Made by a program: the position numbers and the translations under genes. The notes under the pieces are model-generated. The model saw only the letters and a list, made by a program, of their open reading frames with translations. It had not been told where the DNA came from and searched no databases. From Sistotremastrum niveocremeum HHB9708 (taxonomy: Eukaryota > Basidiomycota > Agaricomycetes > Sistotremastrales > Sistotremastraceae): a stretch of DNA of 64,000 nt. The stretch covers positions 62,001-126,000 of the forward strand of contig KV419418.1 in NCBI GenBank assembly GCA_001630475.1, given 5' to 3'. This document shows positions 2,171 through 52,061 of this stretch, in pieces (position 1 is the stretch's first letter; each line of letters begins with the position of its first letter).

Positions 2171-3574
2171 ATGTCTAGGTTCTCCCATTACACTGAAGGC
2201 GACGAAGAATGGGAGGCAATCTCCAGGGCCTCCTGTCAGATGCTCGACGCAAAAGAACAGACTCTAGACGTGGATTCTTTGAGAACTCTAGTCGATCATG
2301 TGACTGTCCAGCTTCGTGATAAAGCAATCCCTTCAGGTATCGGTCTTCTTTATTTTCGACATCACAATACGAGTGATTAAATCCTGCCCAGACTTATCGA
2401 TTCTGGTAACGGATCACATCATCCCGGTAAAGGGAGGACGCATCACAGTTAGATGTTATACACCACCAAGTTCATCCTCAAATGAGCTTCTTCCGCTCAT
2501 GATATGGATCCATGGCAAGGGCTTGACCGTCTGATAATCAGGATCATACTAAAGCTTGCGTATAGGGGGTGGCTTCTTCCTCGGAAATTTGGAAATCGAT
2601 GACCACTTCTGCCGTCAATTGGCTATCCACGCGAACATCTCAATTCTGGCGATTGCTTATCGCTTGGCTCCCGAAAACGCTTTCCCCACGCAACTCGAGG
2701 ATTGCCTCTCCGCCATCCGATGGGTAACTAACATTACCTTTCACGTTGTATATATATTCTTGATAATGCCAGGGCGTCCAAAACGCACGCAAGCTGAACA
2801 GCGATGTCAGGAAGGGATTCATCATTGGAGGTTACGCTACGGGTAAGCATTAATCGGTCCCAACCAACAATTTTGGGGAGCGAACCAGCGGCGCTACATT
2901 ATTTTCTAGGGGCAAATCTTGCTGCATCAATCTCCCATATCACCCGAGATGACTCAACTTTTAAAATCAAATTCACGGGCCAGTTTTTGCAGTTACCCAT
3001 GTTGTGTCACGTCGACGCTCATCCCAACAAGTAAGTCTCTATACTGATGGCAATGGCAAACTTCGTTCTGAACATCTTCAGATTGGGTTCAGAGTTCAAC
3101 TCGATGTTTGAACTCGATCAATATAATACCCCGCTACATGGACGGCAAGCGTTTCGGAAGATGTGGGGTAAAAAAAAATTCTTTCAATGATATTTCATCG
3201 AAGTTGACCGTTCGATTTAGAGATGTATGGTGCACCCGACCCCGAGGACCCAAAAGTGTCGCCGCTTTGCACGAAGTCTTACAAAAATCTCCCCGCATCC
3301 TATATTCAAATCGCTGGTCAAGATCCTCTCCGTGACGAGGGGCTCCTATATTCCGAAGCGTTGACAGACAACAGTGTTTCCGTCAAGGTTGATGTGTGAG
3401 CGTATTGCCACTTAATCTCACTATCGTGTCGATGATTTTTCTAGATATCCTGGATGTCCCCACGGATTTGCGGCATCACACCCCGAGACTACAGCCTCCA
3501 AGAAGTATAAAGCTGACGCTGTTGTTGGTCTCAAATGGCTCGTGCGCGGAGATCACACCTGGCGAGTGGTCTAA
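2171..3574 (+). CDS. Alpha/beta hydrolase (HSL/GDXG family), nucleophile Ser replaced by Ala
   Basis: Eight exons (2171-2336, 2392-2514, 2566-2723, 2773-2842, 2910-3030, 3082-3167, 3221-3395, 3445-3574) give 342 residues, a usual length for fungal alpha/beta-hydrolase-3 esterases. The HGGGF oxyanion-hole motif is seen at about residues 114-118, followed by YRLAPE. The acid/base part is present: GQDPLRDEG (Asp276) and CPHGF (His306). The nucleophile elbow, normally GxSAG in this family, reads GGYATGANLAA, so the serine position is Ala171. The fold looks complete and all splice joins keep frame, so this reads as an expressed but probably catalytically dead hydrolase. An alternative is a very recent pseudogene. 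The start was chosen as the first ATG that leads into the conserved frame. One intron uses a GC donor. The substrate of the ancestral enzyme cannot be told from the sequence. Confidence 0.85.
2515..2565 (+). other. GC-AG intron
   Basis: The exon reading WIHG ends at 2514 and is followed by GCAAGG. The acceptor TATAG ends at 2565. Using this GC donor rebuilds the HGGGF motif exactly; no GT donor nearby does so. The donor GCAAG is the usual form of the rare GC-AG class. Confidence 0.8.
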
Positions 3575-6517: not shown

Positions 6518-8848
6518 TCAGAAGCCAACGTCGAGTCCTACCACCATGGAAAGCGCAAATCCCATAAGCATGATAACGGCCCATGTCACCATAGGCGTAT
6601 TTGGTGCCAAACTGAACCCTCTCGACAACTTGTTACCATTGATGATATAAGTGAAAAACTGAAGCGCTGCTTCTCCAGGGGGAAGATCTTGCCATCCATA
6701 GGCCGGAACCTATCACCACAAATCAAATCGACGCTTGACCACTCGGAGAGAAATGTACTGTACCTGATGACCGGCCCCGTATACCCTAAGATAACCGAAA
6801 GTTCCGAGCTGTTTGAACTGTCCTGCTTTGACACCCGACACGACGAAATCCGACCATTTAAGTTTGTTGTACTTTGAAGTGTATTTTGTCTTCAGATTAG
6901 AGACCTACGTTCGCGCCCGATTTAGTAGGAGTCGGAGGAGGACAAGATTAATGGTACCATGGCTTCCACGCCTACATAATTGAGAATGAAATCCTACGAC
7001 ACCGTTAATACGAGCATACACATCTACGTCACGAGAATGTCACCGCATCTCCATCGTATATCAACACTCGCACTTGCTATAATAGTTCAACAATCGCGCT
7101 TAATGGTACGAAAATACCTGGAGAACCGCACAGCTCACCGAACTGTCTAGAATGACACTTTCCAGATCCGGCGCATTATTCAACATCCAATCTCCCGACA
7201 TCATAAACGCTTGATTTACTGTCGTACTCAGAGATGTGAACATCGATTCAGCCCCAATCTTCGTCCTATCGCACAACCCAAAATGGATGAGTAAAAGCGC
7301 CAACGAGAGAACGAAAACCCACATGAGATCCGGCTGCTTCAGGAAATTATCGATAGGCGGTGGGAACTGAAACTGACTCTCATAAAGTGTCCTAATATCA
7401 TAGGGATTCAATCTCCCATTCAACCCGGAGTACAAATCGCTCATGTAGGTGTTACAGAAATTCTGAGCCTCAGAACAAGTAGCCTGATTCTCAGTTTTAT
7501 AGCATGCTTGGATTTGAGCCATACATCCGTTCACTTCGTCAAATAAGGTGTTCGCGGTCGATATTTGGGTAGAGGTGGCTGTTTCGATGTTGTATGGATT
7601 TGAGGTGGCATATGTGAGATAGCCAGGGTATTGAATCAGAGGATCCTGGAACATGCGGGTGAATATTTGTATCTGGTGTAGAGCTTTGAAGAAAGAGCGA
7701 ACCGTAAGACCGTTGCCTATTCCAAGAGTCTTGAGATTAATATGAATACCCTCTATCTTTTTCTTCTTGATTGCGGCGTTCTGAGAGAGAAAGAACCTAA
7801 GAATGATCACGATAGTTTCATCAGCGAGCTTCGCGATGTCGGCAAAATTCTATACGCGGCAAATGCAGGCCCATAATGTCCTCCATATCTGCATAGGGAC
7901 TGGTTATGAAACGTGCATCGATGATGAGTGACAGGACCCACGATTCCGTCCATATTCCAAATTCGTTGTGCTGCAAATGACTAAACGCCGGATCCGCAAG
8001 GAAAATTTGAAGCATTTGCCAGACGAGTTGAGCAGCCTCCTTAGCACCGGTGGCGGTATTAGTTCCGTGAGAAAATCCAACAGTGACTACGAAAATGGTT
8101 ATCGTGCCAGAACCGGGTGAATGTTTTACTGACTGGGCTGGTCGATATATAACCTTCATTTGAGAATGAAACAATGAGCACAACATCTAAAATTGCAGAA
8201 TAAAACTTACATATTAGCCACATTATTCCAAGAGTACGGATTCAAGACAACGGTGGTGCTGTCCAAGCTGATCTTGCATGGCTTGGGAACTATGAGCTGC
8301 CTATTCCATCGTGGAAGAATGTCGCTCACCCCGTTCTCTTGAAACAGACCCAACATAGATGAAGACCCTGGCTACATCCAGGTCAATACTCCTCGACCTC
8401 AGAGCCGCAAAAATGTGAGCTACTCCTCCATTCAACCAGATAACCAAAGGCGCCTTATCCGCATTCTGTCGAGCAGCGAAGAACCAGAACCTATCTCCAG
8501 TTAGAAGGCACTAGTGAAACACGATGCCATCTCAGAGCGACGTACCACATGCTTTCAGTCGAGCTCAAATCGGCGTATCCAGAAGCCTGAAATACTCCTC
8601 GTGTTGTCTCTATACCGCTCAACATGAATCGTCACTAGAGCACCAAGGACAATGAACGTACCACAGAAACCAGAATTTTGAACGTATCTCAACGTTCCAG
8701 GCACTGGTATCCCTAAAGGCCTAGGGTGAACACCGCCCAATATCCCATTAACGATCGGGATTTGAGAACCCGAGACTCTCAGAGGAAACACGACGAGAAC
8801 GCCCAGAAAAAGATTGAGAACAAAAGGTATATCCCTCCACAAATTCAT
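6518..8848 (-). CDS. Serine carboxypeptidase, peptidase family S10, triad intact
   Basis: The multi-exon gene begins [16 protein letters not shown], a signal peptide. In order it shows [40 protein letters not shown] (the family's WxNGGPGxSS block), [29 protein letters not shown] (nucleophile Ser, its codon split by an intron near 7946), [35 protein letters not shown] (catalytic Asp block) and [11 protein letters not shown] (catalytic His). It ends with a hydrophobic stretch ([17 protein letters not shown]) just before the stop, suggesting a membrane or GPI-type anchor. S10 enzymes remove C-terminal residues from peptides in the vacuole or outside the cell; here the surface or secretory pathway is inferred. 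It is divergently paired with the copy at 9978-12198, its closest relative in the window. Exon borders follow conserved joins shared with the other two copies. Confidence 0.88.
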
Positions 8849-9050: not shown

Positions 9051-9575
9051 TAGGGCTGGGTAAAAATCGTTAGTGTAAATTTACATTGTAAATTTACATC
9101 ACGTAAAAAACGTTATAAACGCCGAGGCCTCAGAATCGCATGTAAAATATGGGTAAAATATCCCAATTTCTCAGGTACACTACCAGCTCTATCCGAAGAC
9201 TTCGTGGACAACAAGCACAACGTTAGTACCTCCCTGATGCTTTTGGTCCGCTTCCGGCCTATCTTAGGCGGATCGGCAACCAAAGAGGGAAGTGGTACCT
9301 GAGAACTCGGCGATAGCGGGGACATATCCGAGACTACATCCGACCCGAATGCCGATCCGTCATCTAGCTTTTCCCAACTTCAACTTCTTGAGTGCATGTG
9401 CCGTCGTCCCTCATCTTGTTTCATAGATTGTGGGCGTGTAAAATATACAACTGGGTCCATAGGTATATTTTACACGTTATTTACACGTTATTTACAGGCC
9501 ATTTGTATTTTACTTGGAGGGGCAAAACAAACTTACATAAAATACAAGGCCGGAATTGAATTTTACCCAGCCCTA
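9051..9575. mobile_element. hAT-like MITE, 525 bp
   Basis: A perfect 15-bp terminal inverted repeat is present: TAGGGCTGGGTAAAA at 9051-9065 and its complement at 9561-9575. An 8-bp direct repeat, CTGGATTC, flanks both sides (9043-9050 and 9576-9583). The 8-bp duplication and TAGGG ends fit the hAT superfamily. The inside is AT-rich with small inverted repeats (GTAAATTTAC type, 9077-9100) and no transposase, so it is non-autonomous. Both target repeats are identical, suggesting a fairly recent insertion. It lies between two divergent carboxypeptidase starts. Confidence 0.9.
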
Positions 9576-9977
9576 CTGGATTCCGGTTTACGATCGATCA
9601 ATCGAGATCTACCGGTTTGAGCTTCGAATTTTAGAACATATTACGTTTTTTGATGCAGCTCTGAAATTTTGAAGTCAAACAATAGTAAGGGTGAGTAAAA
9701 TCTTTGTGTTAAAGATTATTATTCATGAAATATTTCATCTTTCCCTGCTCGAGACGGGGGAGCTCCAATAGAGTCCGGTGAGTCACTGAATGTAGGTCCA
9801 GACCCTTTCGGTATCGGTTACGGCAACTCACTTTCATCAAGAAACTCCGCTCAAAATCAAGGCAGTGCATCCCTGAAAGACCTGAACGTTGCCTGAATCT
9901 GAGCGAATGTCGCGACGCCCACTGACTCAAACCTAAATTACTCCCATGCTCTCCGCGCGCTCTCATCCACTGCCGTT

Positions 9978-12198
9978 ATGATCTCTAGTCTGCTGAGCCG
10001 GTCGCTTCTCTTGGTCCTCTGCTGTGCTTTACGAAACCGACTGATAAGAACTCTTATTGGAGTCCAGGCAACACAACTGGGAACCCCGACGCCCGGAACG
10101 CTGCGCTATGTACGAAACTCTGGAGTTTGTGGTTCGTTGAGTCCCGCGTGTTCTCATACAAAGAAGGCTCAGAAATTTCTTAGAAACTACGCCTCAGGTC
10201 TTTCAAGCCTCTGGATACGCGGATCTCACGGCGACGGATAGCATGTGGTGCGACTACAGACGGCCGAACCGAAGAGAAATTGAGGAACTCGTTCCAGGTT
10301 TTGGTTCTTTGCTGCTCGAACGAATTCGACGAATGTGCCGCTGGTGATTTGGCTCAATGGAGGGGTACGTGTTACTTATCGTCGACTCATTCGGAAGCCT
10401 TGAATAATTCTGCTTTGAAGCCTGGAACGTCGTCCATGTTGGGATTGTTCCAAGAGAATGGCGTAAGTCCTCTTTCAACAACAGATGTTTCTTCTTAATC
10501 GAACATTCCTTGCCCAGCCATGCCGTATCAGCAGCGATGGCACCTCCCTCAGCCTTAATCCGTACTCGTGGAACTCCGTTGCGAACATGTCTGTAACTCT
10601 GCTTCGAATAAGCTGATGCACTGACTCGAACTAGGCTTTACATTGACCAACCAAGTGCGCTCACCTTCTTATTTCTTTCTGCCGTTTCTGACTTGGGACC
10701 TGCAGTCGGCACGGGTTTTTCTCACGGCGATGAAACCGTAAACGGAGCGAAGCAAGCTGCTAAAAACGTATGGCAAATGCTACAAATATTCCTCAAAGAT
10801 CCTTCATTCTCGTACTTGCAATCGAACGAGTTTGGGATATGGACCGAAGCGTAAGCACCTCTCTACCTTCAAATGAGCAGAGAATAATCCAGACAATAGA
10901 TATGGAGGGCACTACGGTCCTGCGTTTGCAACGTCAGTCTTCTAAGCTCCGCGTCCTGTGACCTTCACTAAGGCGAATTAAAGATACTTTCTCTCCCAAA
11001 ATCAAGCTATCCAGAAGGGTTCGATCCAGGGCATCACTCTCAACCTGAAAACACTCGGCATCGGAAACGGCCTCACGGACCCATTATCTCAATATCCATC
11101 CTATCTTACCTACTCTCAATCAAATCCATACAAGCCGACTGCAACATCTGCTCAAGTCGCCAAATCCTCGACAATGTTCTATCAAAGCGGTGGATGTCAA
11201 GCTCTGATACAGTCGTGCTATAAAGCGGTCGGAATATCAAGTCAATCGTCGGCGTGTTCCAATGCCTGGAGCGTTTGCAATAACCAATACCTTCCTCCTT
11301 TGTCGCAAGGGATTGACCAATACGATATTCGCTCCACTGCAAATATATTCCCACCCGCCATCGATGGTTTCTTAAGAAACTCTACTCTCTTGTAAGTGAC
11401 TTGCTTTCAAATACATACCGTTCTTCCGCTCATATGACACGATTAAGGTCTCAAATTGGAGCCGAGACGAATTTTTCATCCCAATCTGCTACGGTTTTCG
11501 CCGAATTCGAATCCACAGGAGACTGGATGTTGAACTCTGCCCCGGATTTGGCGTCGGTTATAACAAATGGCAATGTCAGTTCCACTGATGATGAATGGCA
11601 CTTGGAAATGCAACCTTATATTATTCATGTAGCACATAAGGGTCCTGATATACGCAGGAGACGCGGTAAGTACTGCGTTTCCACAGACAAATACTCAGGT
11701 TCTGATCTCGATGATTTTCTTCAGGATTTTCTCTTCAACTATATCGGCGTTGAATCCATGGCTAGCGTCATCCTCGTCCCTCTCGCCGACAGTTCTTGAC
11801 TCCGACGTTCCAGGTCGCGAATCTCACCACAAAGATTAATAAGAGTTTCAACAAGACGAAGTTTACGGACTTCTTCGTGGACGGAGTGAAAGCAGGTCAA
11901 GTCAAGCAATCTGCGAACTTGGCATATCTGCGTGTCTATGGAGCTGGAGAAGAGGTATGCATCTTTCTACATGTAATTATCGTTCACAAAGCGTCGCTCA
12001 ATATATGGACAGGTTCCAGCGTATGGATGGCAAAACCTGAAGCCGGGACAAGCTGCCCTTCAGTTCTTCAACTATACTATCAACGACCATTCGTTGTCCA
12101 GAGGCTTCTCGAAGAACGAGATTGGGGTTATGGGAATCTTGATATCGCTAGTTATGGTGATATATTGTTCAATGACTGTCTTCGGCTTCATGTTCTGA
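9978..12198 (+). CDS. S10 carboxypeptidase-like pseudoenzyme (Ser and His of triad lost)
   Basis: The gene starts MISSLLSRSLLLVLCCAL, a signal peptide, and keeps the S10 blocks in order: [70 protein letters not shown], then [58 protein letters not shown] and VYGAGEE/VPAYGW. It ends in a hydrophobic tail (MGILISLVMVIYCSMTVFG). The nucleophile codon, split by the intron 10851-10899, is GC+A, giving Ala where both paralogues have TC+A (Ser). The catalytic His is Glu (GAA at 11949-11951). The Asp block remains. All splice joins I checked keep frame, with no stop. It lacks the intron that both paralogues have after the GNG motif. The likely role is non-catalytic (binding, decoy or regulator) or a young decaying copy. 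Confidence 0.85.
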
Positions 12199-49670: not shown

Positions 49671-52061
49671 ATGAAGCTCGCGATTCACGGCATCCTTATC
49701 TGTCTTTTCATCCCGTCTTGTTATGCGAGTCAGATCCCATCCATCGACGGTATCCATGGCGGTGTCCCCAGCGTCGGGAGCGTCGGAGAGCTGTTCAAAG
49801 AGGCCTTGGTGAATGTGACGCCTACGCCTGGTTCACTACGATATGTTCAGAATACTGGAGTGTGTGGTACGTTCTTTCTATTCCTCATTCGTCCAGTACT
49901 AGTTCTTTCACTGACTCTTCTGCTTTTCAACTTGTTTTCGATTGATCGTGGGTGTCGCTGGTAGAGACGACGCCGAGTGTATTTTCGGCATCTGGATATG
50001 CGGATATTGCAGTGAATCAAAGCATGTGGTGCGTCCTCCCCGTCCTCCTCCATCTCGCTTTGCGTGTTGATCATTAACCATATAGGTTCTGGTTCTTCGC
50101 TGCGAGGAATAATGCTACGTCTGCGCCATTGACGCTTTGGACCAATGGAGGAGTGAGCTATTCGTCCTCGAGATAACATAGGATGGGGTTATTTACGTGA
50201 TGATTTCAGCCTGGTTCTTCGTCGATGCTTGGGCTCTTTCAGGAACATGGGGTATGTCCGTTCCTTTCAATACCGCGTAGATTGAATGTCTGACTGAATG
50301 TGCGCCTCATATTTAGCCTTGTCGAATCAGTCTGGACGGCTCATCCCTCAACTATAATCCCTACTCCTGGAACAATGTCTCGAACATGTACGTTTCTCCT
50401 CCTCTTCCCCGCTTTCAACTCCGTCCTGATCATCCTCCGACTTAGGCTATACATCGATCAACCAAGTACGTCTATCTCCTCGCCCCCTCATCCGGTTTCT
50501 TAAACAAATATGATAGTCGGAACTGGTTTCTCTCACGGACTGATGAACGTAACCGGCACGAAAGAAGCTGCAGAACAAGTCTGGCAAATGCTCCAAATCT
50601 TCTTCAACGATACCCTATTCTCTCAATATAAATCTAACGATTTCGCATTATGGACCGAATCGTTCGTCTCCCCCTCTCCCCTCTCCCCCACCTCCTGTGC
50701 TAACCCTGGGATTGATCTAGATATGGCGGACATTATGGACCTGGATTCGCAGCGTAGGTCCCCGGATTCAACGTCGTTTGATGTTGATTCTGAACCTACT
50801 ATCCCCAGATACTTACTCGACGCTAACGAAAAAATTGCCAACGGTACACTCACCGGAACGACCATCAATCTCAAAACTCTAGGAATCGGCAACGGAATCA
50901 CCGTACGTCCTCCCATACACCCCAAACCGAACCTAAGATTAATCCCTCAATGCTCCAAAGGATCCCCTGACTCAATACGCCCAATACACAACATACGCCT
51001 CCACTAACCCCTACATCCAATTCGCCTCACCCTCCCTCATCGCCTCCGTCAACGCATCATTCTATTCCCCGAACGGGGGGTGTCAACAACTCATCCAATC
51101 ATGTTATTCAACTTCCGAAAATCCTGCTTCGTCGGCGGGTGAGATCCAAAGCGTATGTGCACAGGCGCAGGGAGTTTGTAATGTTGTTATATTGGATGGG
51201 TTGATCGGGCCTGGGAATAGGGATGTGTATGATGTGCGCAAGACGAATCCGGATCCTTATCCCCCGCCTTTAATAAATTTGTTGGACAACAAGACTCTGA
51301 TGTGAGTTCTTCGTTTTGTGTCCGCGATGATATTGATATTGATATGCTACAGAGCGATTATTGGGGCCGAGTCGGAATGGCAGGAGACGAGTAACGATGT
51401 TTATACGAATTTCGCGAGGACGGGTGATTGGATGTTGAATTCTGCTCCGGATTTAGCGAGGGTTATTAATAGCGGCGTGAGTTTCATCTCTCTTCTCCTC
51501 TACGTCGATTGAAGGCTGAGAGGATGTGTAGGTGCGGACATTGATATACGACGGTGATGCTGTAAGCACTTTCCGTTCGATCCCGCTACGCGTTGATTGA
51601 TGTTTTACAGGACTATATATTGAACTACGACGGTGTCGAAGCAATGGTCTGTCCTCCCCCCTCCGCTCCGCTCACTCTAACCCTACATCATACTCTTCCA
51701 GCTATCCGCTCTCCTCCCCTCCCTCCCCTCAATATCCTCCTCCTCATTCTCCTTCCAAAATTGGACCGTCAACAACCACCCCGCCGGACTCGTCCGTCAA
51801 TCTCCAAATTTGACATACGTCCGGGTCTTTGGGGCGGGACATGAAGTACCGGCGTATAATTATACGGGATTGGATGTTGGACAAGCTGCGCTTGAGTTTT
51901 TCAGGTTGACGATGACGGGGACCGAGTTCGTTGCGGCTCCTGCACCTTCTTCGTCTGGGGGGTCGAAGAGTTCGGCGGTGACGTTGGGTGTGAGGAGTTG
52001 GGGATATGGTGCTGGCGTGGTTGCTCTTCTGGGCGCTGTTTCGGCGGCTTTGATTCTTTGA
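49671..52061 (+). CDS. Serine carboxypeptidase, peptidase family S10, third copy, triad intact
   Basis: Fourteen exons, the first at 49671-49866 and the last at 51702-52061, join in frame to 540 residues. MKLAIHGILICLFIPSCYAS is a signal peptide. The S10 blocks run [57 protein letters not shown] (Ser codon split by the intron 50662-50720), [38 protein letters not shown] and FGAGHEVPAY. The C-terminus has a Ser/Gly-rich spacer then a hydrophobic tail (GVVALLGAVSAALIL), typical of a GPI-anchor signal, so a cell-surface carboxypeptidase is likely. Exons are often under 50 nt. An ATG-only exon may precede it at 49608. It is more distant from the 6.5-12.2 kb pair than those two are from each other. 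Confidence 0.9.

Follow-up and report, generated by a model that had tools for sequence, protein, structure and literature searches.

A candidate S10 pseudo-carboxypeptidase beside its triad-intact sister in Sistotremastrum niveocremeum

Described systems and their likeness to copy A

Pseudopeptidases are already known as a kind. The S190A form of cathepsin A, an S10 enzyme of human and mouse, has lost catalysis, yet it assembles into the lysosomal complex and activates Neu1; function here outlasts the loss of the catalytic serine (PMC5241486). Ecm14, a fungal pseudo-carboxypeptidase that is secreted and belongs to family M14, has replaced active-site residues and undetectable activity; it is conserved across ascomycetes and has related pseudoenzymes in basidiomycetes (PMC7706225). 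The S10 peptidases of Trichophyton rubrum are described as GPI-linked (PMC11241649). SCPEP1, the retinoid-inducible member of the family, has the Ser-Asp-His triad and complements cathepsin A in endothelin-1 breakdown (PMC3937211). A survey of plant serine proteases reports inactive homologues in several families, with none named in its S10 section (PMC1560137).

The window (the whole stretch of DNA that was analysed, 64,000 nucleotides of contig KV419418.1 of S. niveocremeum HHB9708) contains three S10 paralogues, one of which, here called copy A, has two of its three triad residues replaced. We interpret copy A as a membrane-anchored pseudo-carboxypeptidase whose fold was probably retained after duplication for a non-catalytic role (probability roughly 0.62). 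Wild-type cathepsin A is active, whereas the loss in copy A is natural and includes the histidine. Ecm14 is a metallocarboxypeptidase of family M14, whereas copy A belongs to S10, and Ecm14 is conserved across ascomycetes, whereas copy A has no known orthologue. No relative of copy A was confirmed in IMG/VR (three stretches matched the pattern, none was confirmed), and a DNA search of a plasmid collection gave no match. The T. rubrum proteins resemble copy A as surface-anchored fungal S10 members, compared by description only, but they are described as peptidases (PMC11241649). The sequence-only reading had likened copy A to retinoid-inducible S10 relatives. This likeness fails, as SCPEP1 is an S10 protein that retains its triad and is no dead S10 (PMC3937211). 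Cathepsin A S190A and yeast Ecm14 are better precedents than SCPEP1. In searches of open-access papers for inactive S10 members, we recognised no natural S10 protein with both Ser and His replaced, which is weak evidence; further examples, undescribed or tabulated in supplements, may well exist. Copy A is a good additional example of a pseudopeptidase rather than an unprecedented one and, with a triad-intact sister 1.1 kb away, it offers a clean pair with which to probe the function of the S10 fold without catalysis.

Gene model and catalytic triad

Copy A was modelled by spliced alignment of S10 protein sequences against the window DNA, and every junction was checked (Table 1). The 1533 coding bases run from ATG 9978 to TGA 12198 with a single terminal stop, and contain no frameshift or internal stop. 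The 13 introns are 46-59 bases each and all 13 have GT..AG boundaries. The translated product matches PF00450 (Peptidase_S10) with E 7.9e-80 and 269.7 bits (cut-off 21.9) over profile positions 5-405 of 420, and is therefore a member of Peptidase_S10 with a profile match that spans nearly the whole domain. The splice joins had been read as kept from the letters of the DNA. This holds in outline but not in every detail: the GLT/DP intron present in B (7702-7646) and in C (50903-50960) is absent from copy A, which has 13 introns versus 14 in B, and its intron-12 donor is placed 6 bases further downstream than in B. Through this shift copy A gains two residues that B, C and E lack; D, too, is modelled with two residues at this place. 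For intron 12 the in-frame GT donor 11767 was preferred to a GC donor. An out-of-frame upstream reading frame of 11 codons (window 9946-9981) overlaps ATG 9978 and could lower translation of copy A.

Table 1. Positions of the S10 copies and of the exons of copy A (window coordinates unless a contig is named)
Feature	Position	Strand	Content	Basis
Copy A	9978..12198	+	Putative S10 pseudo-carboxypeptidase gene; 14 exons, 510 aa	
Exon 1	9978..10131	+	Hydrophobic leader (signal-peptide-like, by hydropathy) and start of mature domain	Alignment, junctions
Exon 2	10184..10247	+		Alignment, junctions
Exon 3	10298..10364	+	NGG of the NGGPG oxyanion/carboxylate-binding block at its end	Alignment, junctions
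Exon 4	10421..10462	+	PG at its start; contains Glu107 (CPY Glu65)	Alignment, junctions
Exon 5	10518..10588	+		Alignment, junctions
Exon 6	10635..10654	+		Alignment, junctions
Exon 7	10706..10850	+	Glu187, then GC (first two bases of the Ala188 codon) at its end	Alignment, junctions
Exon 8	10900..10932	+	Base 1 finishes GCA, Ala188 (CPY Ser146)	Alignment, junctions
Exon 9	10984..11391	+	Two paralogue exons fused (GLT/DP intron absent)	Alignment, junctions
Exon 10	11448..11574	+		Alignment, junctions
Exon 11	11633..11665	+	HIRVLIYAGDA	Alignment, junctions
Exon 12	11725..11766	+	Catalytic-position Asp389 at its start	Alignment, junctions
Exon 13	11814..11954	+	Contains GAA 11949-11951, Glu448 (CPY His397)	Alignment, junctions
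Exon 14	12013..12198	+	End of S10 domain and hydrophobic C-terminal tail, GPI-signal- or membrane-anchor-like	Alignment, junctions, hydropathy
Copy B	6518..8848	-	Head-to-head sister paralogue, triad intact, 15 exons	Alignment, tree, codons
Copy C	about 49671..52061	+	S10 paralogue with Ser, Asp and His kept; third in the window	Ends read by eye
Copy D (L029)	contig 27		GGHYGP subfamily	
Copy E	contig 7		GGHYGP subfamily	

Yeast carboxypeptidase Y (CPY; PDB 1wpx) matches copy A over residues 52-452 (137 identities in 380 aligned positions, E 9.1e-57), and the alignment is gap-free around Ala188 and Glu448. The two proteins have the NGGPG block, the carboxylate-binding Glu65 and Glu145 and Asp338 of CPY in common, but copy A lacks the equivalents of Ser146 and His397 and has a hydrophobic C-terminal tail. 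The position of Ser146 is taken by Ala188, encoded by a split codon (GC at 10849-10850, A at 10900), and that of His397 by Glu448 (GAA, 11949-11951), while Asp338 is kept as Asp389 (GAT, 11725-11727). The flanks of both sites align without gaps. Copy A has WTE(A)YGGHYGP versus WTE(S)YGGHYGP at the first, and YGAG(E)EVPAY at the second, versus YGAG(H)QVPAY in B; two relatives read GAG(H)EVPAY there. B and C encode the serine with TCA, D with TCC and E with AGT; all four have CAT for the histidine. As the codons of B are TCA and CAT, the change to alanine takes one base and the change to glutamate two when compared with this sister. Codons and CPY alignment thus agree with both replacements reported by the sequence-only reading, and the models of B and C, each with Ser, Asp and His, agree with its remark that the other paralogues in the window keep Ser and His.

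An error of sequencing or assembly at both codons is extremely improbable. Three bases would have to be wrong, all within two triad codons of an undamaged 1533-base coding sequence, and a DNA search of the genome found the locus once, with the same letters as the window. Compared with an active S10 serine carboxypeptidase, copy A has the catalytic Asp and lacks the catalytic Ser and His; by sequence it combines an intact domain with lost catalytic residues, as a pseudoenzyme does. With alanine in place of the nucleophilic serine and glutamate in place of the histidine that acts as general base, copy A is expected not to hydrolyse peptides.

The genome (34.7 Mb, 111 contigs) was screened for S10 copies, and the family counts are lower bounds. 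Seventeen copies were modelled, five of the GGHYGP subfamily (A to E) and twelve others. The catalytic Ser is present in all 16 modelled copies other than A, and Asp and His are present in 14 of the 14 with a modelled 3' end. The models C25:185k and C25:194k end before the Asp/His region and were excluded from the Asp/His count and from the tree. Copy A is the only triad exception among the 17 modelled copies (two not reached for Asp/His). Family-profile models of the twelve copies outside the subfamily have no frameshift; when modelled at first with a single distant query, two C17 copies had shown frameshifts and a third copy a stop that was read through. One alignment, from the pre-final modelling pass, underlies both the residue table and the tree, and in that pass C17:200k holds one X (frameshift or stop). 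A different S10 copy (L018, C8:232430-232800) keeps its triad and reads VILC-GPGCSS versus VILWTNGGPGCSS in its neighbour, with three codons missing from the oxyanion/carboxylate-binding block. It is possibly a second inactive S10 protein, reached by a different route.

Remaining substrate site, leader and tail

The CPY residues that bind the C-terminal carboxylate of the substrate are, we assume, W49, N51, G52, E65 and E145, and the oxyanion residues G53 and Y147. On this list all five carboxylate-binding positions are kept in copy A (W91, N93, G94, E107 and E187), as are both oxyanion positions (G95 and Y189), and the seven residues are identical in A and B to E. The NGGPG block and Asp389 are kept, as the sequence-only reading had stated. 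The S1 site of CPY we take to be formed by L178, Y185, Y188, W312, I340 and C341. The first four of these six are the same in copy A; I340 is Leu391 (Ile in B to D) and C341 is Phe392 (Leu in B to D). As these two positions are unlike B, C and D, the cleft of copy A is somewhat altered. The S1' site presumably comprises T60, F64, Y256, Y269, L272 and M398, of which Y256 is kept in A, L272 is unaligned, and T60, F64, Y269 and M398 are replaced in all five copies, A to E. Judged by these residues, the cleft of copy A seems fit to accommodate a peptide C-terminus but not to attack it. Cys56 and Cys298 of CPY, which we take to be a disulphide pair, are both absent in copy A, likewise in B, C and D, and both present in E; this would suggest a paired disulphide loss within the subfamily.

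The presence of the oxyanion and carboxylate-binding residues and of Asp389 would also suit a redirected enzyme, with other chemistry in the cleft, for example Glu448 acting as a base with bound water, or a different substrate. S10 chemistry has shifted elsewhere: a hydroxynitrile lyase (1gxs) is among the PDB sequence matches, and acyltransferases are found among the plant S10 members (PMC1560137). Ala188, however, provides no nucleophile. Furthermore, S10 members with diverted chemistry to our knowledge keep their Ser, and we know of no case of Ala/Glu catalysis in the S10 fold. We consider a redirected enzyme very unlikely.

The signal peptide, described as kept by the sequence-only reading, is kept in part. 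The hydrophobic leader is present, but the (Q/E)IPxx(N/D)GxxGGV stretch, which is common to B, C and D when read by eye, is missing from copy A. The start of copy C possibly lies further upstream, across a leader intron. The hydrophobic tail is kept, as had been stated. The best 17-residue hydropathy is 2.4 in A (2.25 in B, 2.31 in C), the hydrophobic segment ends 8 residues before the C-terminus (6 in B, 0 in C), and the last 22 residues contain no charge (one charged residue each in B and C). By hydropathy, the tails of A, B and C resemble a GPI signal or a C-terminal anchor, and copy A is predicted on the same basis to be secreted and membrane-anchored.

We suggest that after the duplication copy A would have lost the nucleophile and the general base and kept the S10 fold. 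The protein would be secreted and held at the cell surface by its C-terminal anchor. The emptied active-site cleft could then bind the C-termini of peptides or proteins without cleavage, and the bound C-termini might be sequestered, presented or scaffolded, perhaps beside the sister enzyme B. If copy A is a retained pseudoenzyme, our guess is that binding of a peptide or partner is the somewhat favoured role; a purely scaffolding or structural role, equally a guess, is rather less probable. The more specific proposal of a lineage-retained surface S10 pseudo-carboxypeptidase, with the emptied site as its receptor for the C-termini of peptides and a part as decoy, sensor or presenter next to the active sister, is tentative and, taken as a whole, doubtful.

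Sequence constraint and the neighbouring genes

The tree of the 15 longer S10 models pairs A with B as sisters (support 100/99), with a branch length of 0.26 for A versus 0.42 for the triad-intact B. Relative-rate tests gave 30 A-only and 40 B-only changes with outgroup C (p 0.23), 38 and 36 with D (p 0.82) and 24 and 29 with E (p 0.49); no acceleration of A versus B was found with these three outgroups. Over 422 ungapped sites, unique changes at positions identical in the other four subfamily members number 7 in A, 9 in B, 9 in C and 7 in D. Those of copy A are S188A, I218L, A243S, N261S, G307Q, A399S and H448E, and two of the seven are triad residues. When seven changes are placed at random on the 125 sites identical in the other four members, at least two of the three triad residues are hit with p = 0.008. 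Four of the five remaining changes look mild (I218L, A243S, N261S and A399S), and the fifth is G307Q. Among polarisable sites, those conserved in C, D and E are changed in A at 7 of 125 and the others at 43 of 157 (p 1e-6); for B the counts are 9 of 127 and 46 of 160 (p 2e-6). Conserved sites are spared in copy A to the same degree as in B, whose triad is intact. Copy A evolves no faster than B, its changes spare conserved sites, and its reading frame and splice junctions are undamaged; its fold thus appears to have been kept by selection while two triad residues went. On this point the evidence is in favour of the sequence-only reading, which had proposed that selection kept the fold and not catalysis.

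A recently silenced duplicate, which lost its function lately and has yet to accumulate stops, would account for the loss of two catalytic residues, for the altered leader and for an intron-12 donor unlike that of B. In a neutral-decay sketch that counts stops, broken GT/AG and frameshifts (indel rate assumed to be 10% of substitutions), the joint chance of an undamaged copy A is 0.32 at 0.5%, 0.09 at 1% and 0.009 at 2% divergence, so that a gene silenced as recently as 0.5-1% of neutral divergence ago would still have an intact frame with a chance of 0.32-0.09. The codon model M0 gave an omega of 0.017, with dS saturated at 1.4 to 26 over seven branches. With the same saturated dS, the two-ratio model gave copy A an omega of 0.17, nominally above the other branches (LRT versus M0 3.96, p 0.047), and omega = 1 on its branch was not rejected (LRT 1.96, p 0.16). 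An omega inseparable from 1 would suit a silenced duplicate. The free-ratio fit reaches its bounds on some branches. As the synonymous sites are saturated, dN/dS between these paralogues alone is undecisive, and branch-specific dN/dS was set aside as support for either reading. The intact frame and 13 of 13 intact introns argue against silencing, as do the absence of a rate excess and the avoidance of conserved sites as in B. Moreover, three base changes in two triad codons (TCA to GCA and CAT to GAA, from B) would be needed in a short time. We judge a silenced duplicate unlikely; from the sequence, a retained pseudoenzyme is more likely than a relic.

A and B are divergent and 1.13 kb apart. 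A special case of the pseudo-carboxypeptidase reading is that A pairs with B and modulates its activity or stability. The head-to-head arrangement of the sister genes is consistent with such a pair, and cathepsin A sets an example of a protective subunit that acts without catalysis (PMC5241486). Tandem duplication, however, would also place the two genes side by side. In addition, carboxypeptidase Y is a monomer, which counts against pairing. We find pairing distinctly improbable; regulation of the neighbour by copy A, as put forward by the sequence-only reading, is possible on the grounds of adjacency and sisterhood.

An element of about 0.5 kb (window 9051-9576) lies between A and B. It has terminal inverted repeats (GGGCTGGGTAAAA), is flanked by TA at either end, and has one further copy in the genome, which is split (C23:198191-198636, 90%, and 198729-198806, 94%). 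It looks like a small non-autonomous DNA transposon. One of ten flanking open frames has a Pfam match, an Abhydrolase_3 exon (alpha/beta hydrolase) at window 2553-2846 (E 1.5e-17).
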